The position numbers and the translations under genes are program-made. Below are positions 4,220-33,809 of a stretch of 64,000 nucleotides of DNA, in pieces. Under the pieces are notes generated by a model. The model was not told where the DNA came from. It worked only from the letters and a program-made list of their open reading frames with translations, and did no database searches. Numbering within the stretch: position 1 is the stretch's first letter; the number at the start of each line of letters is the position of its first letter. Source of the stretch: Narthecium ossifragum (taxonomy: Eukaryota > Streptophyta > Magnoliopsida > Dioscoreales > Nartheciaceae); NCBI GenBank assembly GCA_963920575.1, contig OY986964.1, positions 33,723,685 through 33,787,684 of the forward strand, given 5' to 3'.

Positions 4220-5849
4220 ATGGTTGAGGGTGGTGGTGGTGGTGCTCAAGAAATCCAGCTCCATGTCCGAGGTTAGTGACACCTTCCTCTCTATTTTCTG
4301 CTTGCTCTTTTAATTGTTCACTCTGAGTACCATGGCTCAGTTACATCAGAGAATTTTAGTAGGAAAACAGAGATGATAAGGGGATACTTATAGAAGATTC
4401 ATCTGCATTAATGGAAAATAAGAAATTTAATGGATGGCAAAACGAAGTTATCATCTAGATGAGCTCTAGAAGCAATTCAAATGGAATGCAATTTCCACTA
4501 GCTATCTCGATGAATCACTTCTCTCTCTGACGTATTTCTTAATCGAAATTGGGTTCTTTTGGTCTGTATCGGTTTGGGATGGGTCAGCTTAAGGTATGTA
4601 GAGTTTACAACATTAATTCACAAAATTTCATAGCGAACCATCTAACCATGCAATTAAAATACTAAAATCTCGATTCCAACTGTAGTAGTAAATTTCATAG
4701 CGAGTTATGACTGCTAATTTATAACTTATATATCCCTCTTCTCTGCATGAAAATATATCAATTTTTACAATCCTTTATTCTCAAGGAATCCAAGATTCCT
4801 CAACATCCTTCAAAGATGCAACTATTTCTAACCTGCAACCACCAAGTTGGCAGTGGTGGTTCACAGTGGCCCTCAACATCTTCTTACTGCTCGCCGGCCA
4901 GACAGTGGCCACGCTGCTCGGAAGATTCTACTATGACAAAGGCGGCAACAGCACATGGATGTCGACGGTTGTACAGTCCGTGGGCTTTCCGGTTCTCTTC
5001 CTCCCCTTCCTCCTCTTCCCTTCTCCTTGCAAGTACCCTTGTACAACCCTCCTCACTCATCCATCCAAAGCGAGGATCGCCTTTGCGTACATGTCTCTAG
5101 GCCTAATAGTCGCCGGAGACAACTTGATGTACTCCTATGGGCTGTTGTACCTTCCAGTATCGACCTACTCGCTGATATGCGCATCACAGCTGGCTTTCAA
5201 TGCGATCTTCGCTTACTTCATCAATTCCCAGAGGTTCACCGCTTTGATATTCAACTCTATCATCCTCGTCACCTTCTCCTCTGCCCTCCTTGGCGTCCAT
5301 TCTGACTCAGAGAGCTCCACAAATGGCAAGTATGCGCTCGGCTTCGTACTGACGATAGGCGCGTCGGCCACCTTTTCCCTTATACTCTCTCTGTCGCAAC
5401 TCACCTTCGAAAAACTCGTAAAGAGAGAGACTTTCTCGGTCGTGTTCGAGGCTCAGATATGCATGTCTATCGTCGCCACCATTGCTTCAGTTGTAGGATT
5501 GCTTGCGAGTGGAGAGTGGAGCAGTATAAGAAGGGAGTACGAGCATTTTGACAAGGGGAAGGTGTCATATGTGATGACACTGGTGGGCATAGCTATAGGA
5601 TGGCAGGTGGCCTCCGTGGGGATTTTCGGGCTAGTCTTTGTTGTATCCTCATTGTTCTCGAATGTGATCAGCGCTCTAGCTTCGCCCCTTGTGCCCATTT
5701 TTGCAGTGATCTTCTTCCAAGATAGGATGGATGGGGTGAAGGTTATGGCCATGTTGATTGCTATCTGGGGGTTTGGTTCTTACGTCTATCAGCAATATCT
5801 TGATGATGCCAAAGCCAAGAAGATCCTAACAAGGGATGCAGCAAAGTAG
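4220..5849 (+). CDS. Purine permease (PUP family), two exons
   Basis: This is a plasma-membrane-type importer of purines, cytokinins or related heterocycles of the plant PUP family (drug/metabolite transporter superfamily). I place exons at 4220-4271 and 4786-5849, giving 371 aa, a usual PUP length. Exon 1 (M-V-E, a glycine run, then AQEIQLHVR) ends at G|GTTAGT. The acceptor TTCTCAAG|GA at 4784-4785 restores the frame and a Gly codon. The AG at 4845-4846 would break the frame. Family signatures are RWW-like WQWWFTVALNIF, GRFYYDKGGNS, GLIVAGDNLMYSYGLLYLPVSTYSLICASQLAFNA (split here as two adjacent motifs), GIAIGWQ, and FQDRMDGVK near the C-terminus. About ten hydrophobic segments are visible. 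It is the first of a direct tandem array with the copies at 6424 and 8671. The exact substrate cannot be told. Confidence 0.93.
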
Positions 5850-8670: not shown

Positions 8671-10715
8671 ATGGGTGAGGATCATGCTGGTGAGAATGAG
8701 ATCCAACTCCAAGTCGAAGGTCAGTAACACCTTAATTTCTTTTGTTGAATTAAATTCTTAAATGCCATGGCTCGGATTCATCATAGAAATTTCGACCAGG
8801 AATTAAAACAGATAATCTTCATAAATTTGCAGTAATGATTAAATCTATCAGCTGAGAGATCTAATGGAGATCGAAGCAATTAAATGGATGGGCAAAAGGA
8901 AGTCATCCTAATTCTCATGAACTCCAAATGATGGGTTCTGTTGAATAAGTCTTTTGCACATAGTATGTAGGCAATATCTATGTTCTAGATTTGGGCGTAA
9001 TTGAAACCGGATTGAATATATAGCCTATCATTTATTTCAGTCTGGGATGGATCTCCTTTGAATTTGTGATTTTATCAAATATATATATACTAGGTTCATT
9101 ATTTGGCTGTTGTGACAATACTTGAAACTTGATGCATTAAAAAAATTAGAACCTCCCCAAAATAGATAACTTCATGAAGCCATCTGATCTGACCATCAAA
9201 TGCAGTTGCGGACCACCTCACATGTGGAGGAGTCATTTTTATACATATACCCCATGAGGCAAATGCTGTTGCGAACGACCTCGCATGTCGGGCTAGACAA
9301 GGACTGACCAGACATGTGAATCCCCCGTTAGTGGGGTTGATGTATGTGGAGTGGCTGTCATGTATCACTTAGTCTTTTTGCTCAATTTAGCCAAAAAAAC
9401 AAAAAAGTATTCTGATCAAACCATCAAAATAGTCTACACTGCGTTCGATTGTTCTTTAAGACGCATTTCATAGCAACTTATGGAGCACATCAGTTCTACT
9501 ACAGCATATGCCCCCTCCCTCCCTCCCTCAAGGTTATGCTAACTTTCATATTTATGTGCTCTAATTTTATTAATTCTTTGCAATTTAATTAGTTTATTTC
9601 TTTATTTATGCTAACTGACCCTCCTCTTTGCGTATACATGTATATTCTGTTTATACTACATACAAGGTCTCAAAAGACACTGGCAATGGTGGTTGGTGGT
9701 GGCCCTCAACATCTTCTTCGTCATCGTCGGCCAGATTGTGGGTGTGTTGCTCGGAAGATTCTACTTTGCGAAAGGCGGCAACAGCCTGTGGATGTCGACT
9801 CTCGTACAATCCACGGGCTTCCCGCTCCTCCTCCTCTTCTTCATTCCCTTCCCTTATCCTTACAAGGCTTGTAGCTCAACCCTCCTCACTCACCCCTCTA
9901 AAACAAAGATCGCCTTCGTCTACATCACTCTAGGCCTAATCGTCGCCGGAGACAACTTGATGTTCTCCTATGGCCTCCTGTACCTCCCTGTATCGACCTA
10001 CTCCCTCATTTGCGCGTCGCAGCTGGCTTTCAACGCGATCTTCTCCTACTTCATCAATTCACACAAGTTCACCGCTCTGATACTCAACTCCGTTGTGGTC
10101 CTCACCTTCTCCGCCGCCCTCCTCGGCGTCCAGCCCGGCTCACAGAGCTCTACAAAAGATAAGTACGCGCTCGGCTTTGTACTGACGGTAGCCGCATCCG
10201 GCACGTACTCCCTCCTACTCTCATTGCTGCAGCTTGCATTCGAGAAGCTTATTAAGAGGGTGGCCTACTCGGTCGTGTTGGAGGCACAAATATGCATGGC
10301 TTTCACAGCCTCTTGTGCTTCAGTTGCTGGCCTGTTTGCAAGTGGAGAATGGAGCAGGATCCACGGAGAGTACGAGGGGTTTGAGAGGGGGAAGGTGTCA
10401 TATGTGATGACACTGGTTGGGATTGCAATAGGATGGCAGGTAGTATACGTGGGAGCTTTCGGATTGGTTCTTTCGACATCGTCCTTGTTTTCGAATGTGA
10501 TTGCCACTCTGGCTTTGCCCGTTTTGCCAATCTTTGCAGTCATCTTCTTCCATGACAGGATGGATGGGTTGAAGGCCATGGCCATGTTGATGGCTATTTG
10601 GGGCTTTGTTTCTTACATCTATCAGCTCTATCTTGATGATGTCATGGCCAAGAAGAAGGCCTTCAGGGCTGATGCAGAGGAGATGTCAATTGTTTCCGTT
10701 TCCACCGCCTCATAA
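8671..10715 (+). CDS. Purine permease (PUP family), two exons
   Basis: This is a second intact PUP transporter, likely importing purines, cytokinins or related compounds across a cell membrane. Exons are at 8671-8719 and 9667-10715, giving 365 aa. Exon 1 encodes MGEDHAGENEIQLQVE and ends at G|GTCAGT. The acceptor ACAAG|GT at 9665-9666 keeps frame and continues G-LKRHWQWWLVVALNIFF. The intron is 947 bp, longer than the 514 bp of the upstream copy, at the same codon. Motifs match the first gene: GRFYFAKGGNS, GLIVAGDNLMFSYG, LPVSTYSLICASQLAFNAIF, GIAIGWQ and FHDRMDGLKAMAM. The C-terminus is longer by a Ser-rich tail (EEMSIVSVSTAS). The two intact copies and the pseudogene share orientation and exon layout, which points to tandem duplication. 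Confidence 0.94.
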
Positions 10716-18784: not shown

Positions 18785-19806
18785 CAATTTTGCTAGAGGC
18801 CAGGGTCTTGTAAGGGCCTTGCAAGGCCCTGGCCACGTGGTGCAATTAGAGAGCATCACGTTCTCCCACCCCACCCACCCACCATAAATGCTGATATGCC
18901 AAGCGGGGGGAGAATCCAAGAAATTAGGCGCTGGTTTCAAATTTCCAATCTCTCCCTCTTTCTCTTCCTCTAATTTTCCAATTTCTCTCATTCTCTTCCT
19001 CCCTCCCCGGACCGTGACCTCTCGTCCCTCTCCTCCTCCTCCGGCATCCGCGGCTCCTCCTCCGACATCCACGTGGATCTCCTCCTCCGGCATCCACGCG
19101 GATCTCCTCCTCCGGCTCCTCCTCTTCCGGCATCCGCGGCTCCTCCTCCTCCGGCATCCACGCGAATCTCCTCCTCCGGCTCCTCCTCTGCACGCTCCTC
19201 CTCCTCCGGCATCCGCGGCTCCTCATCGTCATCCTCCGGCATCCGCACGCCTCCTCCTCCTCCTCATGCTGCATCCGCGTGCTTCTCCTCCTCCTCCTCC
19301 TCCGGCATCCGCGGCTCCTCCTCCTCCTCCGGCACCCAAGCGCCTCCTCCTCCTCATCCTGCAGCCGCGTGCTTCTCCTCCTCCTCCTCCGGCATCTGCG
19401 TTCTCCTCCTCCCACATCCGCGCGCGTGCCTCCTCCTCCTCCTGCTGCATCCGCGTGCTTCTCCTCCTCCGGCATCCGCAGCTCCTCCTCCCCCTCCGGC
19501 ATCCGCGGGCGCTCCTCCTCCTCCTTCGGCATCCGTGCACTCCGCCTCCACGCACTCCTCCTCCACCGGCATCCGCGGCTCCTCCTCCACGCGCTCCTCC
19601 TCCTCTGCCATTGGATTAGTTTTTCTAATTTGAAATTCTGTATTTTTGGTTTCAATTTGATGATTTTGTTTCTTCATTAGTATTCATATTTGGAATTCAT
19701 TGTATTTTGGGATGAATTGGATGATACAAGATATCATTCCTTGTAATTGGTCAAGTTTTGAATGACTTTGTTGCCTGGTTTTTTATGTGCACAGGTATTG
19801 ATGAAT
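18785..19806 (+). repeat. Left arm of the foldback element
   Basis: This 1022-bp arm runs from the terminus to the loop edge. It carries a unique outer part (to about 19010), a minisatellite (about 19030-19610) of CTCCTCCTCCGGCATCCGCG units about 18-24 bp long, and a unique AT-rich inner part (19615-19806). Long open frames on both strands rich in Ser/Pro or Arg/Glu are by-products of the repeat, not genes. Confidence 0.9.
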
Positions 19807-19847
19807 GTTCACTATCCATCAATATTCACTATCCATCAATAGTAAAT
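19807..19847. other. Loop of the foldback palindrome
   Basis: This is the 41-bp spacer between the arms. It contains a direct repeat of CACTATCCATCAATA (19810-19824 and about 19828-19841), which could be slippage at the palindrome centre. Confidence 0.8.
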
Positions 19848-20284
19848 ATTCATCAATACTTGTGCACATAAAAAACCAGGCAACAAAGTCATTCAAAACT
19901 TGACCAATTACAATGAATGATATCTTATATCATCCAATTCATCCCAAAATACAATGAATTCCAAATATGAATACTAATGAAGAAACAAAATCATATAATT
20001 GAAACTAAAAATACAGAATTTCAAATTAGAAACACTAATCCAATGGCAGAGGAGGAGGAACGCGCGGATGCCAGCGGAGGAGGAGCGTGCGGAGGCGGAG
20101 TGTACGGATGCCGGAGGAGGAGGAGGAGCGCGCGCGGATGCCGGAGGGGGAGGAGGAGCCGAGGATGCCGGAGGAGGAGGAGGAGAAGCACGCGGATGCG
20201 GCAGGAGGAGGAGGAGGCACGCGCGCGGATGCCGGAGGAGGAGGAGGAGGAGAACGCGGATGCCGGAGGAGGAGGAGGAGAAGC
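19848..20284 (-). repeat. Right arm of the foldback element, inner part
   Basis: This is the reverse complement of the left arm from its loop edge outward. It is interrupted after GAAGC at 20284 by the composite retroelement. The arm resumes at 33334. Confidence 0.9.
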
Positions 20285-21827
20285 TGATAAGACGTGAAAA
20301 GTACACAAATCGCCCCTTTAACTAGTTCTTGTTAGTCTCTGAGCAATGCTATTTTGATTGTATTTTCTCCATTTCAGGCATAAGGACCCTCAGCGAAGAT
20401 TAGATCAAGTTTGGTGTTAAAACGAACAAATAAAGAACCTGCTAGGAGCAAAATAGCAAAGGAGCAAAGATGGACCATCTTTGACATCAAAACTGTACCT
20501 GCTCAGGAAGAACCAGATAATGTGCTATACATGGTTGGAAAGCTCTTGAAGTCTAGATTCCAGAACTTTTAACGGTTTGTGATTTGGAATTTCCTAGAGG
20601 AAGATATGCTATTTTTAGTACAGAGGTGCAGAAGAAGCAGTTACGGAAAACCAGATCGATCTCATCCCAAAGGAGATCGATCTCCTTGGGCGCTGCGGGA
20701 AAAATAGAAGGAAACTGACTAATCCGAGTTAGGGTTTGTCTTAGGCTATAAATAGCCTTCTTTGGGGGCGTTTTGGCCGCCTTCCAGGGCCGAATTTGGG
20801 GTTCCTTTAGACGTTTTTTGCAGCTTTCTTCCCCCTTTTTCTTCCTCCTTTCTTCTCAAATAAATTAGGGTTAGGGTTAGATCTTTGGGAGAAGATCCAT
20901 GGATGGATGGCTTCAACAACCTTCATCAAGGTGTCCTCTTCTTATGATGAGTACCTAAACCCTAGCCTAGGAATTCTATGATGTAGTAAAGTTATTTATT
21001 AGGGTTTTCTATAGATTATGAGTTGTAAATCATACGTTTGATGATTGAATGGATTGTTTTTATGTTCTTATCTATTGGTGTGATTATTATTATATGTTAG
21101 ATGAATGATTTGTTCCTATATGCCCTAGATTTAGGTCTTGTGCATGTTAGGGCTTGAGATTAGGGATTCTCGTCAAACATCTATGCTAGGACCATGGATG
21201 TGAGGATTTCCTTCTCGTGATTAAAGGCCTTGTAATGCTAGGACCATTACACATAATGCTAGAACCATTATGACCGCTTCTTAATCCGTTATTCATCATT
21301 ATTCGAGATTAGGGATTTCATATGTGCTAGAACCACAATGCTAGCGCCAGAACCACTAGGTTAACTCTAATCCTTGATACATTCTAGTAGGCGATCTCAA
21401 GGTGCCAGAACCATCTTGATTATTTACCAATATCCATTCTTGATATTATCCCCGACGTCTTCGTTGAGCGGTAGGACTTCTAGCCATTCACCTATCGACT
21501 ATATGAAATCATCTAAGTTGATTTATCTGCTCTCCTCTTAGGAATACCTAGTAAGTTCTTTATTATTGATTAGAGTTCCTTGGCATTATCTTATCTATTA
21601 GTACTCTTTTCGTATTTGTTTAGTTCTAGATAAAAACCCAAAAGATTATCTTTTTCCCAACTCTTTGTTAGGAATTATACCTAGTATACGACTTAAACCA
21701 TTAGTTCCCTGTGGATTCGACTCGGACTCATTACTATCTACCCATAAAGTAGTTAGTTAGTAGTTTGATTATAAATTTGTAATTTTGGCGTCCTTGTTAA
21801 GGTAACGACACTTTTCAAGGCGTGTCA
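20285..21827 (+). repeat. 5' LTR of element A (1543 bp)
   Basis: It starts TGATAAGACGTG and ends GGCGTGTCA. A TATAAATA box lies at 20747. A telomere-like TTAGGGTTAGGGTTAG is near 20866, and a GATCGATCTC pair is at about 20656-20683. It is the same length as the 3' LTR at 25852, with about eight base differences found by eye. Confidence 0.95.
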
Positions 21828-21833
21828 GAATTT

Positions 21834-21851
21834 TGGCGCCGTTGCCGGGGA
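21834..21851 (+). other. Primer-binding site of element A, tRNA-Asp type
   Basis: TGGCGCCGTTGCCGGGGA is complementary to the 3' end (with CCA) of plant tRNA-Asp(GTC). It is separated from the LTR by the six bases GAATTT. Confidence 0.92.
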
Positions 21852-22141
21852 ATTAATTAGGGTTTTAAGTTGTTTACTTAGTGTAGTTGCTTCCAACTAG
21901 TTGTTTCTTTTGTTCTTATTTATTTATAATAAAAAAAACGAAAATCATAAAAAAAAATTAAAATTTAAAAATACAAAAATAGAATTTGTGCTAACATTTC
22001 TATATCTTTGTGTTGATAGAAGACACCGCCGTGCGAGATTTGAGAACATCTAAGCGACGACGGGCGTCTCATTCTTAGACCATCCACTGTAACGTATTTC
22101 TATCTTTTTGGTGTGATCCTTGATTGTTTTGATTGATATAC

Positions 22142-23920
22142 ATGGCCGATAAGTATATGCCACCGGGTGATGCATTACATGATTATTCTTTACCATCTAG
22201 TCATACACTCGCTTATGTTAATGACACATATGATTGTTCAAATCCAGCATATAATTTGCATGCATACTCTTATGATCCGAATTTGAGTAGTCATACATAC
22301 CCCAATTGGCAATACCAAGGTTACTATCATCCGAATGTTCAACACCAAGGTTACTATCCTAACCCGCACTATGCACCTCGTTTTGAACCGTCTTATCCTT
22401 CTCAACCACAATACCCACCACCCCAACATTGGTATGAGCCTTCTGTCTCTCTTGAACCGCAAGCACAAGTAGAGCCATCTTTAGATGAAAGAATATTTCT
22501 ACAAGAAATTCTACATTCTCATTCGCAATCAATAGCTAGGATACAAGCCCAAATGGAGCAACTCACATCTTTGATTGAATCCTACGATGATGCGGTTGAT
22601 GATTGTAGGAATGATTCGGCACTTCCTAGTTTTAATAATGTTACTGGTGATAGCCAAGTTGTCAATGTTAGTGACACATGCACTTATGAGATTCCTAATG
22701 AGACTTCACTTGTTCATGATGAGTCGAATGATGTTTCGCCGGTGTGTGATGATATTATTGATGATTTCTGGTCGGCGGCACATATTAAATGGTTGAATGG
22801 ACAACTGCCTCATATTGTTCATGATGATGATGATAGTGATGAAAGCATGTGTGACTTAGAGCCTCCTACGATTAATGAGGATGTTGATAATGCTTATCCG
22901 GTTAATGATTTTGAGGCATGTGATGGTGGTATAGTTTATGATAACTCACCGGTTTCCGATGAACAAATTAATGATGGTGCTAATAAAGAGATATTACCCG
23001 CATTTGATGTCATTGATATGTTTCATGAGGACTTACCGGTGTTTGAGTATGCTATTGATGATAATGTTCAGTATGATCAGTCATTACCGGTGAATTATAT
23101 TTTTAATGATAATGAGCCAGTACTTGAGGCATCATATGCGAGTGATATTTTACCGATTTTTGATGATTATGGTGATGAAAGTACATATAATGATAAGTTA
23201 TCGGTTTTTGACGTGTTGGATGATGATGGTGTTTTGCCTTGTTTAAATGATAATGAGGAATCTAGTGATGTTAGCCAAACCTCTCATAGAAAACCTCAAT
23301 TTGAGCTTCTACCATTCATGTCATTCACACTAGTTGAACATTTGGGGAGTATAGACCTTATTTTGAGTAGAGACTATGCTCATTTTCATCGAAACTTCAT
23401 CAAAGATCTTATAAAGACTTCTCGTCCTTCTAGAACTTTGTTTGCTACGGACATTCCCTTTTTCTTTGACGAAGCTTGTTTGCATGGCTTTACCCTTCTT
23501 CTGACCATGTATTTCTTTACCTCAAATCATCGACCTCTAAAAGACCACTTGAGGATGGATCTTTTTATTGAAATTCATGGCTTGAAGGATGAGAATTGGC
23601 CCATGATTAAAACTTTTACTGAATTGTTTGCCATAAATCCTTCTTTATTCTTTGATAAAACATGTTTACACTTCCTCGCCATTCTTAGGAACATGTATTT
23701 CTTTACTTTCACCCATCGACCACCAAAAGCCTATTTGATGATGGACAAATTTACTGATTCACATGATTTGCAGGATGATGATCGACTATTAGCTAGAATT
23801 TTTAATGATTTATTTGCCTTGGACCATCCGTTCTTCATTAATAAATCATGTCTGCATGTTTTCTCTATTCTTAAATCCATGTATTTCTTTACATGGAATC
23901 ATCGACCACCCAAATTTTAG
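22142..23920 (+). CDS. Non-autonomous retroelement ORF, element A (592 aa, unknown function)
   Basis: I do not recognise this protein. The first ATG (MADKYMPPGDALHDY) is at 22142; the open frame upstream begins only with TTG. The N-terminal 110 residues are rich in Tyr, Pro and Gln, with NWQYQGYYHPN and QGYYPNPHY repeats. Next comes a probable short coiled coil (about 115-150), then a long acidic middle with many Asp pairs (about 150-380). The C-terminal 165 residues hold three tandem units of about 62 residues with a core FFFD-x2-CLH...MYFFT-x2-HRPPK. No zinc knuckle, protease, RT, RNase H or integrase motif is present. The frame is intact, as in element B at about 90% or better by eye, which suggests it was functional when the elements moved. 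It might be a replaced gag. Confidence 0.75.
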   Translation: MADKYMPPGDALHDYSLPSSHTLAYVNDTYDCSNPAYNLHAYSYDPNLSSHTYPNWQYQGYYHPNVQHQGYYPNPHYAPRFEPSYPSQPQYPPPQHWYEPSVSLEPQAQVEPSLDERIFLQEILHSHSQSIARIQAQMEQLTSLIESYDDAVDDCRNDSALPSFNNVTGDSQVVNVSDTCTYEIPNETSLVHDESNDVSPVCDDIIDDFWSAAHIKWLNGQLPHIVHDDDDSDESMCDLEPPTINEDVDNAYPVNDFEACDGGIVYDNSPVSDEQINDGANKEILPAFDVIDMFHEDLPVFEYAIDDNVQYDQSLPVNYIFNDNEPVLEASYASDILPIFDDYGDESTYNDKLSVFDVLDDDGVLPCLNDNEESSDVSQTSHRKPQFELLPFMSFTLVEHLGSIDLILSRDYAHFHRNFIKDLIKTSRPSRTLFATDIPFFFDEACLHGFTLLLTMYFFTSNHRPLKDHLRMDLFIEIHGLKDENWPMIKTFTELFAINPSLFFDKTCLHFLAILRNMYFFTFTHRPPKAYLMMDKFTDSHDLQDDDRLLARIFNDLFALDHPFFINKSCLHVFSILKSMYFFTWNHRPPKF

Positions 23921-25851
23921 TATATTTAGTATAACGTCGAGCTAGCGACATTAAACTTAGCGCTTGGTGGGAGGCAACCCATCTCTGCTTTGATTTTTAA
24001 CTACTTGTTTAAAATTTATTCTTTGCACGCTTACTTGTATTTCCCTTTAGTTGCATACTTGATTTTGGGTGTGTTTTCTTTGAATTGAGCTTAGAATGAT
24101 TGAATGGGATGTCATGATCGTCGTAGTTCGATTTCTTGTGTGAATTGATTGATTTGGAGTGTTTTTAATGCCTAGAGGGCCCAGTATTCATGCGTGAGCT
24201 CTCAGCCGTCCATTGGCTGCCATACATGATCCATAGGCTGCAATGATCCTTTTTCCAATCGGACGGTCGCGATCATCAATCAGGACAATATTTTTGATGC
24301 TGAATATTTTTGGTGTTGCGCATGGATGATTTAATGTATTTTAATGTCTATATTTTAAATTATGTGGATGAATGATTGTACAGACTACATATTCAAGAAA
24401 TACAAAGGAGACTCTGCCAAAATTTTTAATAATTTATATGCCTTTTTGTTATTCATGATATATTTTCCATTTATTCTATTTGATTTTTCTTTGGAAAGGT
24501 ATTTTTATGACAGGTGTTCCTTTGTACATTGCTCATGGGCGGATATTAATACCAAATATAGATCGTATTTTCTAGAGACATGCATTTCGTCGGTGGCGAT
24601 GTTTCCGTTGTGTGGGCGAGGTGGTGATTATAATGTGGAAGACGACTACTCTGACACGATCTTATGGTGATCTCTACCCTTTATACCTTGCTTTATTTTT
24701 ATGACTTAGTGTAATTGATGACAATTACATTTAAGTTGGGGGGTAGAATTCTAGAAATTTATGTTTATGATTCTTAGGGAATTCATATCTATTATACTTC
24801 CCTTAAAACATGTCAAAAGAATGACATTATGATTTTTATTGATAAAGATGCATGATTTAGAAATCTATTCGATGATTTGTTCAGAAATTTATATGTCATA
24901 TAAAGTCTAGCAAATTTAGCTATGCATGACATTATCTCTATACTTTAACACTTTTACCATGATTTAGGGATAACTTGACATATCCTAATGCACTAAGCAC
25001 TTTTACATGTTGAAGAGCTGAAATTAGATTCTGAGCCTAAGACTGGGATAAATTTATTGTTCTCTGTCATGTCACAGAAGATACACGAACACATGCAATT
25101 TTCTGTTCACAAAAAAGTATATGTCTGAAAGTGTAGGGTTTTCAACTTAGTAACCGGGCAGTGTGCCTAACCAGCGTGATGTTCGCGTAAAACAGTTGAA
25201 TTACCTGAAAAAAAGAAAAAAACAGAAATAAAAAAAAAGGATTTCATACCTAGTAACCGGGCAGGGTGCCTAACCAGCATGTTGTTCGCGTAAAACGGTT
25301 GAATTTCCTAAAGAAAAAAAGTATGTGTCTGAAAAAAAAAGAACAGATATTGTTATGTGATAGTGGAAAATATGTGCATGTTTAAAATGTTGATCTTGAA
25401 CAGTTGAATGCTTGGATATAATGGAGACTCTGATGCATGTGGAACTTTATTCACACACTGCAGTGTTAAGATTATTTTTGAATTATGATTAAATATGTTG
25501 AAGTATTGGAAGTGTGTTATGACATGCTTGTATTTACTCTACTTTTATGTGTCTGTAAATTAAAGAATACATTCATGAATATTATTTCTATTTGATGCAT
25601 TAGAGTTAATGAATATTATAATTGAGTTCTGATGATATGTCAAGGTGATGTATAGATGTTTGTGGGAATCATCACTGGAAACCCTCAGGAGACTATAACT
25701 CCTCCACTGGAGCCACCCAGGGGTTTAAAGGCTTGTTACACATGCTAAGTGTAATCGTGAGACCTACGAAAGTGGCTAGTTAGGTTTACTGCTTTATGTT
25801 TATTTTTATCTTGCTTTGCTTGAGGACTAGCAAAGATCAAGTTGGGGGGTG
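23921..25851. other. 3' non-coding part of element A with polypurine tract
   Basis: There is no large ORF. A 102-residue frame at 24362-24670 contains a segment AKIFNNLYAF resembling the ORF's ARIFNDLFAL and may be a decayed extra repeat unit. A tandem 100-bp repeat lies at 25149-25316. The polypurine tract is AGTTGGGGGG just before the 3' LTR (about 25840-25849). Confidence 0.6.
25149..25316. repeat. Two copies of a 100-bp unit in element A
   Basis: AGTAACCGGGCAG-GTGCC begins at about 25149 and about 25249. Each is followed by TAACCAGC, GTTCGCGTAAAAC and GTTGAATT, then an A-rich spacer. Element B lacks this region. Confidence 0.85.
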
Positions 25852-27394
25852 TGATAAGACGTGAAAAGTACACAAATCGCCCCTTTAACTAGGTCTTGTT
25901 AGTCTCTGAGCAATGCTATTTTGATTGTATTTTCTCCATTTCAGGTTTAAGGACCCTCAGCGAAGATTAGATCAAGTTTGGTGTTAAAACGAACAAATAA
26001 AGAACCTGCTAGGAGCAAAATAGCAAAGGAGCAAAGATGGACCATCTTTGACATCAAAACTGTACCTGCTCAGGAAGAACCAGATAATGTGCTATACATG
26101 GTTGGAAAGCTCTTGAAGTCTAGATTCCAGAACTTTTTACGGTTTGTGATTTGGAGTTTCCTAGAGGAAGATATGCTATTTTTAGTACAGAGGTGCAGAA
26201 GAAGCAGTTACGGAAAACCAGATCGATCTCATCCCAAAGGAGATCGATCTCCTTGGGCGCTGCGGGAAAAATAGAAGGAAACTGACTAATCCGAGTTAGG
26301 GTTTGTCTTAGGCTATAAATAGCCTTCTTTGGGGGCGTTTTGGCCGCCTTCCAGGGCCGAATTTGGGGTTCCTTTAGACGTTTTTTGCAGCTTTCTTCCC
26401 CCTTTTTCTTCCTCCTTTCTTCTCAAATAAATTAGGGTTAGGGTTAGATCTTTGGGAGAAGATCCATGGATGGATGGCTTCAACAACCTTCATCAAGGTG
26501 TCCTCTTCTTAAGATGAGTACCTAAACCCTAGCCTAGGAATTCTATGATGTAGTAAAGTTATTTATTAGGGTTTTCTATAGATTATGAGTTGTAAATCAT
26601 ACGTTTGATGATTGAATGGATTGTTTTTATGTTCTTATCTATTGGTGTGATTATTATTATATGTTAGATGAATGATTTGTTCCTATATGCCCTAGATTTA
26701 GGTCTTGTGCATGTTAGGGCTTGAGATTAGGGATTCTCGTCAAACGTCTATGCTAGGACCATGGATGTGAGGATTTCCTTCTCGTGATTAAAGGCCTTGT
26801 AATGCTAGGACCATTACACATAATGCTAGAACCATTATGACCGCTTCTTAATCCGTTATTCATCATTATTCGAGATTAGGGATTTCATATGTGCTAGAAC
26901 CACAATGCTAGCGCCAGAACCACTAGGTTAACTCTAATCCTTGATACATTCTAGTAGGCGATCTCAAGGTGCCAGAACCATCTTGATTATTTACCAATAT
27001 CCATTCTTGATATTATCCCCGACGTCTTCGTTGAGCGGTAGGACTTCTAGCCATTCACCTATCGACTATATGAAATCATCTAAGTTGATTTATCTGCTCT
27101 CCTCTTAGGAATACCTAGTAAGTTCTTTATTATTGATTAGAGTTCCTTGGCATTATCTTATCTATTAGTACTCTTTTCGTATTTGTTTAGTTCTAGATAA
27201 AAACCCAAAAGATTATCTTTTTTCCAACTCTTTGTTAGGAATTATACCTAGTATACGACTTAAACCATTAGTTCCCTGTGGATTCGACTCGGACTCATTA
27301 CTATCTACCCATAAAGTAGTTAGTTAGTAGTTTGATTATAAATTTGTAATTTTGGCGTCCTTGTTAAGGTAACGACACTTTTCAAGGCGTGTCA
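25852..27394 (+). repeat. 3' LTR of element A (1543 bp)
   Basis: TGATAAGACG...GGCGTGTCA, equal in length to the 5' LTR. TATAAAT is at 26314. The LTR is followed by AAATTT and then the tRNA-Asp copy, not by a target duplication. Confidence 0.95.
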
Positions 27395-27400
27395 AAATTT

Positions 27401-27452
27401 TGGCGCCGTTGCCGGGGATCGAACCCGGGTCACCCGCGTGACATGCGGGAAT
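27401..27452 (-). other. tRNA-Asp 3' portion (52 nt) at the A/B junction
   Basis: Read on the minus strand this is the tRNA-Asp(GTC) sequence from just before the anticodon stem through CCA. It holds the anticodon arm with GTC, the variable loop, the T arm (GGTTCGATCC) and the acceptor 3' strand ending GGCGCCA. One base differs from the plant consensus I know, A for C just before T33 of the anticodon loop. The encoded CCA, and its placement exactly where a primer-binding site would begin, show that it was copied from a mature tRNA primer and is not a tRNA gene. Confidence 0.9.
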
Positions 27453-27453
27453 T

Positions 27454-29036
27454 TGACACGCCTTGAAAAGTGTCGTTACCTTAACAAGGACGCCAAAATT
27501 ACAAATTTATAATCAAACTACTAACTAACTACTTTATGGGTAGATAGTAATGAGTCCGAGTCGAATCCACAGGGAACTAATGGTTTAAGTCGTATACTAG
27601 GTATAATTCCTAGCCAAGGAGTTGGGAAAAAGATAATCTTTTGGATTTTTATCAAGAACTAAACAAATACGAAAAGAGTACTAATAGATAAGATAATGCC
27701 AAGCAACTCTAATCAATAATAAAGAACTTACTAGGTATTCCTAAGATAAGAGCAGATAAATCAACTTAGATGATTTCATATAGTCGATAAGTGAATGGCT
27801 AGAATTCCTACCGCTCAACGAAGACGTCGGGGATAATATCAAGAATGGATATTGGTAAATAATCAAGATGGTTCTAGCACCTTGAGATCGCCTAATAGAA
27901 TGTATTAAGGATTAGAGTTAACCCAGTGGTTCTGGCACTAGCATTGTGGTTCTAGCACATATGAAATCCCTAATCTCGAATAATGATGAATAACGGATTA
28001 AGAAGCGGTCATAATGGTTCTAGCATTATGTGTAATGGTCCTAGCATTACAAGGCCTTTAATCTCGAGAAGGAAATCCTCACATCCATGGTCCTAGCATA
28101 GACGTTTGACGAGAATCCCTGATCTCAAGCCCTAACATGCACAAGACCTAAATCTAGGGCATATAGGAACAAATCATTCATCTAACAAATAAATCAACAC
28201 CAATAGATATAAAGAAAATATCAATCAATCCATTCAACCATCAAAGTATGATTTACAACTCATAATCTATAGAAAACCCTAATAAATAACTTTACTACAT
28301 CATAGAATCCCAAAACTAGGGTTTAGGTACTCATCTTAAGAAGAGGACACCTTGATGAAGGTTGTTGAAGCCATCCATCCATGGATCTTCTCCCAAAGAT
28401 CTAACCTAATTTGTGGGAAAGAAACTAAGAGAAACCCTAAGAGATGACGAAAATTCGGCCATGGAAGGATGCCAAAACGCCCCCAAAGAAGGCTATTTAT
28501 AGCCTAAGACAAACCCTAACTCGGATTAGTCAATTTCCTTTTATTTTTCCACCAGCGCCCAAGGAGATCGATCTCCTTTGGGTTGAGATCGATCTTCTTC
28601 ACTTCGGGAACTTCAAAAACTGGAATTTGCCCGACCCAGATCGATCTGCATGGGAAGCAGATCGATCTGGTTTTCCGTAAGTGCTTCTTCTGCACCTCTG
28701 TACTAGAAATGGCATATCTTCCTCTAGGAAACTCCAAATCACGAACCGTAAAATGTTCTGGAATCTAGACTTCAAGAGCTTTCCAACCATATATAGTACA
28801 TCATCTGGTTCGTCCTGAGCAGGTACAGCTTTGATGTCAAAGATGGTTCATCTTTGCTCCTTTGCTCTTTTGCTCCTAGCAGGTTCTTTATTTGTTCGTT
28901 TTAGCACCATACTTGATCTAATCTTCGTTGAGGGTCCTTAAGCCTGAAATGGGGAAAAGACAATCAAAATAGCATTGCTCGGAGACTAACGAGACCTAGT
29001 TAAAAGGGTGATTTGTGCACTTTTCACGTCTTATCA
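27454..29036 (-). repeat. 3' LTR of element B (1583 bp)
   Basis: The plus strand reads TGACACGCC...CTTATCA. The length equals the 5' LTR of B at 31746, with about fifteen differences by eye. It is 40 bp longer than the LTRs of A and differs from them at many sites, including the GATCGATC region (28560-28670), which has four copies instead of two. Confidence 0.95.
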
Positions 29037-29614
29037 CACCCCCCAACTTGATCTTTGCTAGTACTCGAGCAAAGCAAGATAAAAATAAACATAAAGCAGT
29101 AAACCTAACTAGCCACTTTCGTAGGTCTCACGATTACACTTAGCATGTGTAACAAGCCTTTAAACCCCTGGGTGGCCCCAGTGGAGGAGTTATAGTCTCC
29201 TGAGGGTTTCCAGTGATGATACCAACAAACATCTATACATCCCCTTGACATATCATCAGAACTCAATTATAATATTCATTAACTCTAATGCATCAAATAG
29301 AACTAATATTCATGAATGTATTCTTTAATTTACAGACCCATAAAAGTAGAGTAAATACAAGCATGTCATAACCGGAGAGACAGCGACGGTGGGCAGCGTC
29401 GTCGGCTCGGGGACAAGCCGACAAGCCAGGACGACGAGCTGTGAGAAGAGAAAGAGCGGGAGGAGAGAGGTAAAACGAGGAAAAGAAAGGAAATTTAGGA
29501 AAAATCCGAAAAAATAGAAACAAAACGTGGAAAAATATTAAAAATTAAGGAAAAATCTAAAAACTCAGGAAAAATCTGAAAAACTACTAGGTTGCCTCCC
29601 AGGAAGCGCTCGGT
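29037..29614. other. 3' non-coding part of element B, with a segment not in A
   Basis: The polypurine tract lies next to the LTR (CACCCCCCAACTTG on the plus strand). Sequence shared with A ends at about 29371. About 29372-29560 is a GC-rich then A-rich stretch (GACAGCGACGGTGGGCAGCG...) absent from A, where A has about 1.6 kb of other sequence. It may be captured DNA. Confidence 0.6.
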
Positions 29615-31432
29615 TTATCGTCTTCCGCTCGACGTTATGCTATAAAGATCAAAACTGAATTTGGGTGGGCGATGGTTCCAGGTGAAGAAATACATTGATT
29701 GAAACATATAGAAGATGTGCAAACATAATTCATCAAAGATGAAAGACTGGTCCCAAGTAATGAAATCATTAAAAAATTTAGTTAGTGACCAATCACCATC
29801 CTGCAAACCATGTGTTTCAATAAATCTGTCTATCATCATATAGGCTTTTGGTGGTCGATGGGTGAAAGTAAAAAAATACATGTTCCTAAGAATGGCGAGG
29901 AGGTGCAAACATGTTTTATCAAAGAATAAAGAAGGATTCATGGCAAACAATTCAGTAAAAGTTTTAATCATGGGCCAAATGTCATCCTTCAAGCCATGAA
30001 TTTCAATAAAAAGATCCATCCTCAAGTGGTCTTTTGGAGGTCGATGATTCGAGGTAAAGAAATACATGGTCCGAAGAAGGGTAAAGCCATGCAAACAAGC
30101 TTTGTCAAAGAAAAAGGGAATGTCCGTAACAAACAAAGTGCTAGAAGGATGAGAGGTCTTTATAAGATCTTTGATGAAGTTTCGATGAAAATGAGCATAG
30201 TCTCTACTCAAAATAAGGTCTATCCTCCCCAAATGTTCAACTAGTGTGGATGACATGAATGGTAGAAGGTCAAATTGAGGCTTTCTATGAGAGGTTTGGC
30301 TAATATCACTAGATTCCTCACTATCATTTAAACAAGGCAAAACACCATCATCATCCAACACGTCAAAAACCGGTAACTTATCATTATATGTACTTTCATC
30401 ACCATAATCATCAAAAATCGGTAAAATATCACTCGCATATGATGCCTCATGTATTGGCTCATTATCATTAAAAATATCATTCACCGGTAATGACTTATCA
30501 TACTGAACATTATCATCAATAGCATACTCAAACACCGGTAAGTCCTCATGAAACATATCAATGACATCAAATGCGGGTAATATCTCTTTATTAACATCAT
30601 CATTAATTTGTTCATCGAAAATCGGTGAGTTATCATAAACTATACCACCATCACATGCCTCGAAATCATTAACCGGATAAGCATTATCAACATCATCATT
30701 AATCGTACGAGGCTCTAAGTCACACATGCTTTCATCACTATCATCATCATCATGAACAATATGAGGCAGTTGTCCATTCAACCATTTAATATGTGCCGCC
30801 GACCAGAAATCATCAATAATATCATCACACACCGGCGAAACATCATTCGACTCATCATGAACAAGTGAAGTCTCATTAGGAATCTCATAAGTGCATGTGT
30901 CACTAACATTGGCAACTTGGCTATCACAAGTAACATTATTAAAACTAGGAAGTGCCGAATCATTCCTACAATCATCAACCGCATCATCGTAGGATTCAAT
31001 CAAAGATGTGAGTTGCTCCATTTGGGCTTGTATCCTAGCTATTGATTGCGAATGAGAATGTAGAATTTCTTGTTGAAATATTCTTTCATCCAAAGATGGC
31101 TCTACTTGTGCTTGCAGTTCAAGAGAGACAGAAGGCTCATACCAATGTTGGGGTGGTGGGTATTGTGGTTGAGAAGGATAAGACGGTTCAAAACTAGGTG
31201 CATAGTGCGGGTTAGGATAGTCATCTTGAGGTTGAACATTCGGTGGATAGTAACCTTGGTATTGCCAATTGGGGTATGTATGACTACTCAAATTCGGATC
31301 ATAAGAGTATGCATGCAAATCATAAGCGGGATTTGAACAATCATATGTGTCATTAACATAAGCGGGTGTCTGACTAAATGGTAAACAATAATCATGTAAT
31401 GCATCACCCGGTGGCATATACTTATCGGCCAT
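29615..31432 (-). CDS. Non-autonomous retroelement ORF, element B (605 aa, unknown function)
   Basis: This is the homologue of the ORF in element A, with the same start (MADKYMPPGDALHDY), Tyr/Pro/Gln-rich N-terminus, short coiled coil (near ERIFQQEILHSHSQSI), acidic middle and three C-terminal units (CLH...MYFFT-x2-HRPPK). The third unit differs (DQSFIFDELCLHIFYMFQ), and the tail runs 13 residues further than in A. The frame is intact. Differences from A are scattered, often conservative, with few indels, compatible with coding constraint. No retroviral enzyme motif is seen. Confidence 0.75.
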   Translation of the reverse strand: MADKYMPPGDALHDYCLPFSQTPAYVNDTYDCSNPAYDLHAYSYDPNLSSHTYPNWQYQGYYPPNVQPQDDYPNPHYAPSFEPSYPSQPQYPPPQHWYEPSVSLELQAQVEPSLDERIFQQEILHSHSQSIARIQAQMEQLTSLIESYDDAVDDCRNDSALPSFNNVTCDSQVANVSDTCTYEIPNETSLVHDESNDVSPVCDDIIDDFWSAAHIKWLNGQLPHIVHDDDDSDESMCDLEPRTINDDVDNAYPVNDFEACDGGIVYDNSPIFDEQINDDVNKEILPAFDVIDMFHEDLPVFEYAIDDNVQYDKSLPVNDIFNDNEPIHEASYASDILPIFDDYGDESTYNDKLPVFDVLDDDGVLPCLNDSEESSDISQTSHRKPQFDLLPFMSSTLVEHLGRIDLILSRDYAHFHRNFIKDLIKTSHPSSTLFVTDIPFFFDKACLHGFTLLRTMYFFTSNHRPPKDHLRMDLFIEIHGLKDDIWPMIKTFTELFAMNPSLFFDKTCLHLLAILRNMYFFTFTHRPPKAYMMIDRFIETHGLQDGDWSLTKFFNDFITWDQSFIFDELCLHIFYMFQSMYFFTWNHRPPKFSFDLYSITSSGRR

Positions 31433-31721
31433 GTATATCAATCAAAACAATCAAGATCACACCAAAAAGATAGAAATACGTTACAGTGGATGGTCCAAGA
31501 ATGAGACGCCCGTCGTCGCTTAGATGTTGTCAAATCTCGCACGGCGGTGTCTTCTATCAACACAAAGATATAGAAATGTTAGCACAAATTCTATTTTTGT
31601 ATTTTAAAATTTTAATTTTTTTTATGATTTTCGTTTTTTATTATTATAAATAAATAAGAACAAAAGAAACAACTAGTTGGAAGCAACTACACTAAGTAAA
31701 CAACTTAAAACCCTAATTAAT

Positions 31722-31739
31722 TCCCCGGCAACTGCGCCA
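31722..31739 (-). other. Primer-binding site of element B, tRNA-Asp type
   Basis: The minus strand reads TGGCGCAGTTGCCGGGGA, one mismatch to the tRNA-Asp 3' end. It is separated from the 5' LTR by AAATTT, the same six bases that separate A's 3' LTR from the tRNA copy. Confidence 0.88.
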
Positions 31740-31745
31740 AAATTT

Positions 31746-33328
31746 TGACACGCCTTGAAAAGTGTCGTTACCTTAACAAGGACGCCAAAATTACAAATTT
31801 ATAATCAAACTACTAACTAACTACTTTATGGGTAGATAGTAATGAGTCCGAGTCGAATCCACAGGGAACTAATGGTTTAAGTCGTATACTAGGTATAATT
31901 CCTAGCCAAGGAGTTGGGAAAAAGATAATCTTTTGGATTTTTATCAAGAACTAAACAAATACGAAAAGAGTACTAATAGATAAGATAATGCCAAGGAACT
32001 CTAATCAATAATAAAGAACTTACTAGATATTCCTAAGATAAGAGCAGATAAATCAACTTAGATGATTTCATATAGTCGATAGGTGAATGGCTAGAATTCC
32101 TACCGCTCAACGAAGACGTCGGGGATAATATCAAGAATGGATATTGGTAAATAATCAAGATGGTTCTAGCACCTTGAGATCGCCTACTAGAATGTATCAA
32201 GGATTAGAGTTAACCTAGTGGTTCTGGCACTAGCATTGTGGTTCTAGCACATATGAAATCCCTAATCTCGAATAATGATGAATAACGGATTAAGAAGCGG
32301 TCATAATGGTTCTAGCATTATGTGTAATGGTCCTAGCATTACAAGGCCTTTAATCTCGAGAAGGAAATCCTCACATCCATGGTCCTAGCATAGACGTTTG
32401 ACGAGAATCCCTAATCTCAAGCCCTAACATGCACAAGACCTAAATCTAGGGCATATAGGAACAAATCATTCATCTAACAAATAAATCAACACCAATAGAT
32501 ATAAAGAAAATATCAATCAATCCATTCAACCATCAAAGTATGATTTACAACTCATAATCTATAGAAAACCCTAATAAATAACTTTACTACATCATAGAAT
32601 CCCAAAGCTAGGGTTTAGGTACTCATCTTAAGAAGAGGACACCTTGATGAAGGTTGTTGAAGCCATCCATCCATGGATCTTCTCCCAAAGATCTAACCTA
32701 ATTTGTGGGAAAGAAACTAAGAGAAACCCTAAGAGATGACGAAAATTCGGCCATGGAAGGCTGCCAAAACGCCCCCAAAGAAGGCTATTTATAGCCTAAG
32801 ACAAACCCTAACTCGGATTAGTCAATTTCCTTTTATTTTTCCCGCAGCGCCCAAGGAGATCGATCTCCTTTGGGTTGAGATCGATCTTCTTCACTTCGGG
32901 AACTTCAAAAACTGGAATTTGCCCGACCCAGATCGATCTGCATGGGAAGCAGATCGATCTGGTTTTCCGTAAGTGCTTCTTCTGCACCTCTGTACTAGAA
33001 ATGGCATATCTTCCTCTATGAAACTCCAAATCACGAACCGTAAAATGTTCTGGAATCTAGACTTCAATAGCTTTCCAACCATATATAGTACATCATCTGG
33101 TTCGTCCTGAGCAGGTACAGTTTTGATGTCAAAGATGGTTCATCTTTGCTCCTTTGCTCTTTTGCTCCTAGCAGGTTCTTTATTTGTTCGTTTTAGCACC
33201 AGACTTGATCTAATCTTCGTTGAGGGTCCTTAAGCCTGAAATGGGGAAAAGACAATCAAAATAGCATTGCTCGGAGACTAACGAGACCTAGTTAAAAGGG
33301 TGATTTGTGCACTTTTCACGTCTTATCA
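31746..33328 (-). repeat. 5' LTR of element B (1583 bp)
   Basis: The plus strand reads TGACACGCC...CGTCTTATCA. Its outer end abuts the target duplication GAAGC (33329-33333). Confidence 0.95.
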
Positions 33329-33333
33329 GAAGC

Positions 33334-33809
33334 ACACGGATGCAGGATGAGGAGGAGGCGCTTGGGTGCCGGAGGAGGAGGAGAAGCACGCGGATGCAGC
33401 ATGAGGAGGAGGAGGAGGCGTACGGATGCCGGAGGAGGACGATGAGGAGCCGCGGATGTCGGAGGAGGAGGAGCGTGCGGAGGAGGAGATCCGCGTGGAT
33501 GCCGGAGGAGGAGATCCACGTGGATGTCGGAGGAGGAGGAGCCGCGGATGCCGGAGGAGGAGGAGAGGGACGAGAGGTCGCAGTCCGGGCAGGGAGGAAG
33601 AGAATGAGAGAAATTGGAAAATTAGAGGAAGAGAAAGAGGGAGAGATTGGAAATTTGAAACCAGCGCCCAATTTCTTGGATTCTCCCCCGCTTGGCATAT
33701 CAGCATTTATGGTGGGTGGGTGGGGTGGGAGAACGTGGTGCTCTCTAATTGCACCACGTGGCCAGGGCCTTGCAAGGCCCTTGCAAGACCCTGGCCTCTA
33801 GCAAAATTG
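33334..33809 (-). repeat. Right arm of the foldback element, outer part
   Basis: This continues the inverted arm from the insertion point (matching left-arm sequence near 19370) to the terminus CAAAATTG. The terminus is followed by the 9-bp duplication GGGCGTGAA. Confidence 0.92.

Follow-up and report, generated by a model that had tools for sequence, protein, structure and literature searches.

The window analysed here is a stretch of 64,000 nucleotides (nt) from the genome of Narthecium ossifragum (assembly GCA_963920575.1, contig OY986964.1, positions 33,723,685-33,787,684, forward strand). It contains two complete long terminal repeat (LTR) retroelements, A (20285-27394, plus strand) and B (27454-33328, minus strand), whose U5 ends face each other across a short joint that holds a copy of a transfer RNA (tRNA). 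The features of the pair and of its target are listed below by their positions in the window (PBS, primer-binding site; ORF, open reading frame; TSD, target-site duplication).

18785..19815, minus: second arm of the target palindrome, in which the site is unoccupied and GAAGC stands once (GCTTC on the plus strand)
20280..20284, plus: left copy of the TSD GAAGC
20285..21827, plus: 5' LTR of A, 1543 bp, outer end a trimmed U3 (TGATAAGACG)
21834..21851, plus: PBS of A, 18 nt complementary to the 3' end of tRNA-Asp, then the ordinary internal sequence ATTAATT
22133..23920, plus: internal ORF of A, 595 codons, open, without a Pfam family above the cut-off, no homologue found
25852..27394, plus: 3' LTR of A, 1543 bp, AAGTTGGGGGGTG just before it, 8/1543 differences from its own 5' LTR
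27395..27400, plus: AAATTT, untrimmed U5 letters of A between LTR end and PBS, normally lost at integration
27401..27452, minus: 52-nt copy of mature tRNA-Asp(GTC) that spans linear nt 24 to the CCA end, nt 32 mismatched
27454..29036, minus: 3' LTR of B, 1583 bp, U5 end towards the joint, at most 2 nt kept beyond GTGTCA
29615..31441, minus: internal ORF of B, 608 codons, open, without a Pfam family
31722..31739, minus: PBS of B, one mismatch to tRNA-Asp
31746..33328, minus: 5' LTR of B, 1583 bp, 15/1583 differences from its own 3' LTR, outer end a trimmed U3
33329..33333, plus: right copy of the TSD GAAGC

Two inverted elements at one target site

Self-comparison of the window paired the LTRs of A (20285-21851 with 25852-27418, 99.4% identity, the shared start of the PBS included) and those of B (27452-29036 with 31744-33328, 99.05%), and it aligned A with B in inverted orientation (93.9% over 3338 bp). 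An earlier reading, made from the sequence only, had described two complete elements on opposite strands meeting at their 3' LTRs, and this description is borne out. LTR lengths were taken after trimming to GTGTCA. Both elements possess the near-identical TG..CA LTRs, the PBS and the polypurine tract of LTR retrotransposons, while the short TSD belongs to the pair as a whole. A and B are inverted and have four complete LTRs, and do not form a head-to-tail tandem.

The flanks read GGAGGAGAAGC/TGATAAGACG on the left and CGTCTTATCA/GAAGCACACGG on the right. As the sequence-only reading had stated, GAAGC is duplicated at the outer ends only and does not occur at the inner joint, and both outer ends (20285 and 33328) are the U3 end of a 5' LTR. 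Both ends at the target are trimmed U3 ends instead of the one U3 and one U5 end of a canonical insertion. In each element a TG separates the GGGGGG tract from the 3' LTR; this TG is missing at the outer ends, which is the expected result of trimming. The GAAGC match alone is modest evidence, because the flank is a purine-rich repeat in which random 5-mers, one from each flank, agree 1.2% of the time.

This repeat forms a palindrome with its centre near 19827. The palindrome (18785-20284 plus 33329-33809) is a purine-rich minisatellite, the arms of which are about 83-88% alike, and it becomes a single foldback once the insertion is omitted. The unoccupied target with one GAAGC would read GGAGAAGCACACGG, and the flanks fused in this way can be aligned, across the fusion point, with the opposite arm (83.1% over 1046 columns). 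In both arms the site is bracketed by GAGGAGAACGC and GGCGCTTGGGTGCC, each of which occurs once per arm within the window. The unoccupied arm with its single GAAGC and the flanking words are stronger evidence than the GAAGC itself. Trimming of the outer TG/CA ends, a 5-bp duplication and an empty site with one copy are all present, as in a single insertion by integrase. This supports the proposal of the sequence-only reading that a tail-to-tail pair was inserted once with two U3 ends at the target. The same reading had predicted that the empty site would be one foldback arm with a single GAAGC; such a site was found on the paralogous palindrome arm, which is not an allele.

The inner joint and its tRNA copy

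The joint (27395-27453, 59 bp) lies between the GTGTCA of A, which ends at 27394, and the TGACAC of B, which starts at 27454. It consists of AAATTT, TGGCGCCGTTGCCGGGGATCGAACCCGGGTCACCCGCGTGACATGCGGGAAT and a T, with an overlap of about 1 nt to the end of B, and the untrimmed U5 end of B is short of 4 nt. The joint connects U5 to U5 and is not a 2-LTR joint of the U5-U3 type. Next to the 5' LTR of each element, AAATTT (GAATTT in A) precedes the PBS, the match to the tRNA comprises just 18 nt, and ATTAATT follows. Derivation of the joint from tRNA-Asp, already proposed from the sequence, was recovered with 52 nt of the mature tRNA including CCA; the description is refined in the position of the inner end of B (27454), in the extent of the joint and in the untrimmed letters at the U5 end of A.

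For comparison the genome was searched (379.4 Mb, 150 contigs, in which the window is C2:33723685-33787684); the resulting counts of tRNA-Asp places and of extended tRNA copies can be lower bounds. The tRNA-Asp genes comprise 72 nt with no encoded CCA (3/3 fetched; 7 places were listed at 98%), and the CCA of the joint therefore stems from a mature tRNA. A CCA followed by sequence that matches a genomic tRNA gene without CCA is what a copied primer tRNA should leave. The mismatch at nt 32 may have arisen during copying or by a mutation acquired later.

The normal stop of plus-strand DNA lies 18 nt into the tRNA, and in human immunodeficiency virus type 1 it requires m1A58 (PMC9317671). The copy in the window extends past A58, which is linear nt 57 in the count used here. 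The Rfam tRNA model gave 21.4 bits on the 52-nt copy, under the gathering score of 29. ARAGORN found 0 tRNA genes in the window and 0 in locus L001, which was expected because the tRNA copy is truncated.

Similar joints elsewhere in the genome

Recurrence was searched for with a pattern that combined the U5 end, the PBS and the tRNA letters after it and tolerated 3 mismatches at most. A tRNA copy that exceeds the 18-nt PBS follows U5 at 11 places, one of which is the window (7 forward, 4 reverse), and the reversed-pattern control gave 0. The whole 75-nt mature tRNA was copied at 4 of the 11 places (C9, C6, C10b and C1a, ending at linear nt 1), and ARAGORN recognized a complete tRNA-Asp at all four full-length loci (L034, L028, L029 and L035). 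The remaining copies end at linear nt 4 (C4), 5 (C5), 10 (C3), 20 (C10a), 24 (window), 37 (C10c) and 48 (C2b). C1a (L035) is the only one of the 11 copies with a mismatch at A58, where m1A is usually found. C1b (C1:25607089, 88% over query positions 15-72) has neither the U5 end nor AAATTT and was excluded from the 11.

The sequence-only reading had suggested a search for other pairs of the family joined by tRNA-Asp sequence, and two such cases emerged: C10b, which has its own TSD, and C10c, which is degraded. C10b (C10:22041783-22047530, L015/L016) comprises an LTR on the plus strand (1674 bp), AAATTT and a complete tRNA copy, followed by an inverted element without 3' LTR, which ends in a 5' LTR on the minus strand (1648 bp). 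Its flanks, GGATGAG/TGATGAGACG and CGTCTCATCA/ATGAGCC, place the TSD ATGAG on two U3 ends. By this layout, C10b is another inverted insertion that has a U3 at either outer end and a TSD. One of its partners, a single LTR with a tRNA copy, has a layout like that of plus-strand strong-stop DNA. At C10c, a 3' LTR and a 39-nt tRNA copy are followed by an inverted LTR fragment (82% over 421 bp).

Two further places show other geometries. The outer LTRs of C6 point in one direction (29 mismatches over 1584-1585 bp, TSD ATGTT), and its outer ends are an ordinary U3 and an ordinary U5; in its interior, a third LTR of about 80% identity is followed by AAATTT, a tRNA copied in full and a repeated part of the 3' half. 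C10a (L011/L012, joint at C10:18931429-18931501), to which the tRNA match at C10:18931395 belongs, consists of a 5' LTR, a 56-nt tRNA copy, a U5 stub, a PBS and internal sequence without 3' LTR. It has CCCCT at both outer ends (shared stretch TTACCCCT), one of which is not an LTR end.

Palindromic U5..U5 patterns with gaps of 32-62 were found at 4 places. The window alone is U5-U5; at L039 and L041 a U5 is followed by the start of a U3, and at L040 the right side shows the start of a U3 while the left side matches no LTR. With gaps of 0-30 there were 2 places, both of them LTR pairs in the same orientation. These patterns allow no mismatches in either end motif, so that diverged pairs escape, and C10b and C10c are of another form. 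At L045 (C11:19584788-19584829), two head-to-tail LTRs (94.2% identical) are joined as AAATTT/TG, which looks like an integrated untrimmed U5-U3 joint and would give an independent view of the complementary DNA (cDNA) ends. L044 (C9:12908184-12908245) shows an LTR, an 18-nt PBS, GGAG and another LTR in the same orientation, and is either a joint with the ordinary stop at 18 nt preserved or one insertion nested in another.

Origin of the pair and relation to known systems

The Kimura distance between the two LTRs of an element is 0.0052 in A and 0.0095 in B (8/1543 versus 15/1583 differences, Fisher p = 0.21), so that different ages of A and B found no support. With a substitution rate of 1.3e-8 per site per year, these distances correspond to 0.20 million years for A and 0.37 million years for B, and they are compatible with one date. 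Between A and B, the LTRs differ by 5.3-5.6% (Kimura, 5' pair and 3' pair) with 116 gap columns, which therefore indicates two source copies; the sequences fit a derivation of A and B from different copies of one family. A fold-back copy of one molecule is excluded by the divergence of about 5% and the indels between A and B. Along the LTR alignment (20285-21827 versus 31746-33328), the first 900 columns are 90-94% identical and the rest 97-100%, with a sharp step. The higher identity in R-U5 than in U3 was considered as a possible sign of copying in one particle.

Trimmed U3 ends with one 5-bp duplication stand at the outer borders, and the inner ends carry no target sequence. The pair most probably goes back to one integration event, in which two cDNAs of one family entered as a U5-to-U5 pair, with a U5 end blocked by tRNA and two U3 ends used for integration. 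Synthesis at the U5 end of A would have continued into the still-attached primer tRNA, past the 18-nt stop. This read-through would have buried the CA that integrase trims about 58 nt inside the molecule and made the U5 end of A unusable. Host end-joining with an overlap of about 1 nt may then have linked the blocked end to the U5 end of B; its only traces would be this overlap and the loss of 4 nt. The joined pair would have exposed two U3 ends only, which are terminally similar to U5, and integrase would have joined both to the target. It is known from retroviruses that integrase inserts the good end of a molecule with one poor end, and that host enzymes handle the other (PMC5041404). A joining of the U5 ends before integration is favoured, because cDNA-cDNA joints of other geometry seem to occur here (C6 with its ordinary outer U3 and U5 ends; L045).

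Several points weigh against this origin or against its recurrence. The sequence itself fits joining before and after integration alike, and the structure is known from one assembled sequence. The fold of the 52-nt copy is no better than that of shuffled sequences (z = 0.47), as expected for a truncated tRNA, and lends no support. In C10b, one partner is a single LTR and the other has no 3' LTR, and the LTRs of the two differ at 64/1647 positions. C10a is not inverted, recognizable outer ends were searched for and not found at C10c, and at C2b an LTR and a 28-nt stretch lead into ordinary internal sequence, with no second cDNA joined. The partner joined to the tRNA copy was not identified at 5 of the 11 places (C9, C4, C5, C3 and C1a), and no matching TSD was found at C9. 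The 11 places are a count and not a rate, for which the ordinary U5-PBS sites would be the denominator. Intact U5-U5 pairs like that of the window seem to be rare in this genome, because only 1 of the 4 palindromic hits with gaps of 32-62 is U5-U5.

An alternative, which is less likely but deserves attention, is that two separate cDNAs each gave one U3 end to one integrase complex and that their free U5 tails were sealed later by host end-joining. The concerted use of two separate donor DNAs is known from test tubes, and all sequence evidence for the pair joined beforehand fits this course equally. The handling of one end by integrase and of the other by host enzymes is likewise documented (PMC5041404). 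Separate cDNAs alone fail, however, to explain the U5-tRNA joint inside the head-to-tail C6 with its ordinary outer ends.

It is rather improbable that reverse transcriptase itself made the joint by copying the tRNA and jumping to the U5 end of a second cDNA, which would yield one continuous inverted molecule. The overlap of about 1 nt and the 4 nt lost from B suit such an end-to-end jump, and copying of the tRNA by a polymerase is needed in any case; end-joining, however, accounts for the same letters, and the joints at C10b and C6 lead to truncated or internal ends.

Two independent insertions, united by a later deletion or inversion, are very improbable. Nested elements are common in plants, and random 5-mers of the repetitive, purine-rich flanks agree 1.2% of the time. 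Normal integration, however, would have left the U5 end of A with neither AAATTT nor a tRNA copy, and the target is collinear with the other arm through a site with one GAAGC; the untrimmed U5 and the collinear unoccupied site are the grounds for rejecting independent insertions of A and B. An assembly or library artefact is the least credible origin, for although the locus is a long inverted repeat, a hard structure, and although the window has a gap (a single run of 200 N at 542-741, 19.5 kb off), A and B are about 5% apart with indels, misassembly would not be expected to yield a paralogous unoccupied site or the copy of a mature tRNA, and an extended tRNA copy follows U5 at 10 other places.

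Among known systems, the pair joined through its U5 ends resembles the Moloney murine leukaemia virus (MLV) circle with a tRNA between two LTRs (Colicelli and Goff 1986, as cited in PMC12220202) in that a reverse-transcribed tRNA lies at an LTR-LTR joint formed outside the chromosome. That case is a cloned circle, the tRNA-Gly of which is modelled as a spurious primer (PMC12220202), whereas the window holds two linear genomes joined U5 to U5 by a tRNA of their own primer type and integrated with a TSD. Plant tandem LTR retrotransposons (PMC11899658, 2025) likewise combine two internal regions with just one duplication of 4-5 bp at the same site and are read as one insertion. Their internal regions are interleaved with LTRs; the main text of that paper contains neither 'orientation' nor 'tRNA', and both occurrences of 'inverted' stand in a reference title. 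In plant circles with LTR-LTR junctions, as described in PMC9324142, cDNA ends are end-joined with small indels as in the window, but each circle is one molecule and extrachromosomal. Aberrant proviruses share the division of labour between host enzymes at the poor end and integrase at the good end. There, according to PMC5041404, the end left to host enzymes is joined to DNA of the host or of the virus, and large rearrangements often accompany this; in the window, integrase seems to have made both joints with the target, and the poor ends are linked to one another.

The sequence-only reading had named no standard description of such an inverted dimer with primer tRNA in plants. This holds in part: the tRNA-bearing retroviral circle (1986) and the plant tandems with one TSD (2025) are precedents, and searches of an open-licence library showed no integrated plant inverted dimer with primer tRNA.

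The family of A and B is Athila-like in PBS and layout, a term not applied here to the reverse transcriptase lineage. As in the Athila-type Ty3/gypsy elements Diaspora and Calypso of soybean, the PBS matches the last 18 nt of tRNA-Asp, a primer named among others for non-chromoviruses, and it begins few bp past the LTR in both elements (6 bp, 5 bp in Diaspora; PMC1142308, PMC6317226). The long ORFs of A and B, unlike those of Athila-type elements, matched no gag or pol family. In Pfam, the longest ORF of A gave only Tad8 (E 0.094, below the cut-off) and that of B no match, so that these 2 proteins offered no domain for placement. A protein search with the ORF of A returned 0 of 2785 candidates at E <= 0.001, and viral_contigs held no match for this ORF, the U5-PBS pattern or the tRNA pattern. 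A 106-nt stretch occurs three times within the ORF of A (23437-23914, 186-nt spacing, 69-71% alike), with counterparts in B.

If the pair arose by joining of its U5 ends, the window represents the integrated product of a blocked retrotransposon end, and the joint keeps as a fossil a step that is normally discarded. The outer ends suggest that a plant integrase can complete an insertion at both ends within a genome by means of two U3 ends. The primer can be read from the tRNA copies: the complete 75-nt mature tRNA-Asp at 4 of the 11 places implies that those cDNAs were primed by, or joined to, a whole tRNA. This contrasts with the priming of plant elements by partial tRNAs described in a 2025 review (PMC12786077). 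Being inverted, the pair is moreover a long hairpin of natural origin and of the sort suggested in PMC11624286, where tail-to-tail LTR pairs were put forward, unobserved, as hairpins that might favour silencing of LTR elements.

A broader interpretation can be offered only tentatively. Failure of the tRNA stop might be a recurrent side-branch in this plant, which leaves U5 ends that carry a copy of the whole tRNA or of most of it and are useless to integrase; these cDNAs might re-enter the genome as joined pairs, sometimes via two U3 ends. If this were true, the inverted pairs could act as hairpin loci that seed small-RNA silencing of their own family, and the joints would show priming by a complete tRNA instead of short tRNA fragments.

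Outside the pair, the window contains two tandem purine permease (PUNUT) genes (4725-5849 and 9615-10715) with a DNA identity of 79% over 979 bp. The named best matches of the gene at 4725-5846 are proteins of flowering plants, many of them monocots.

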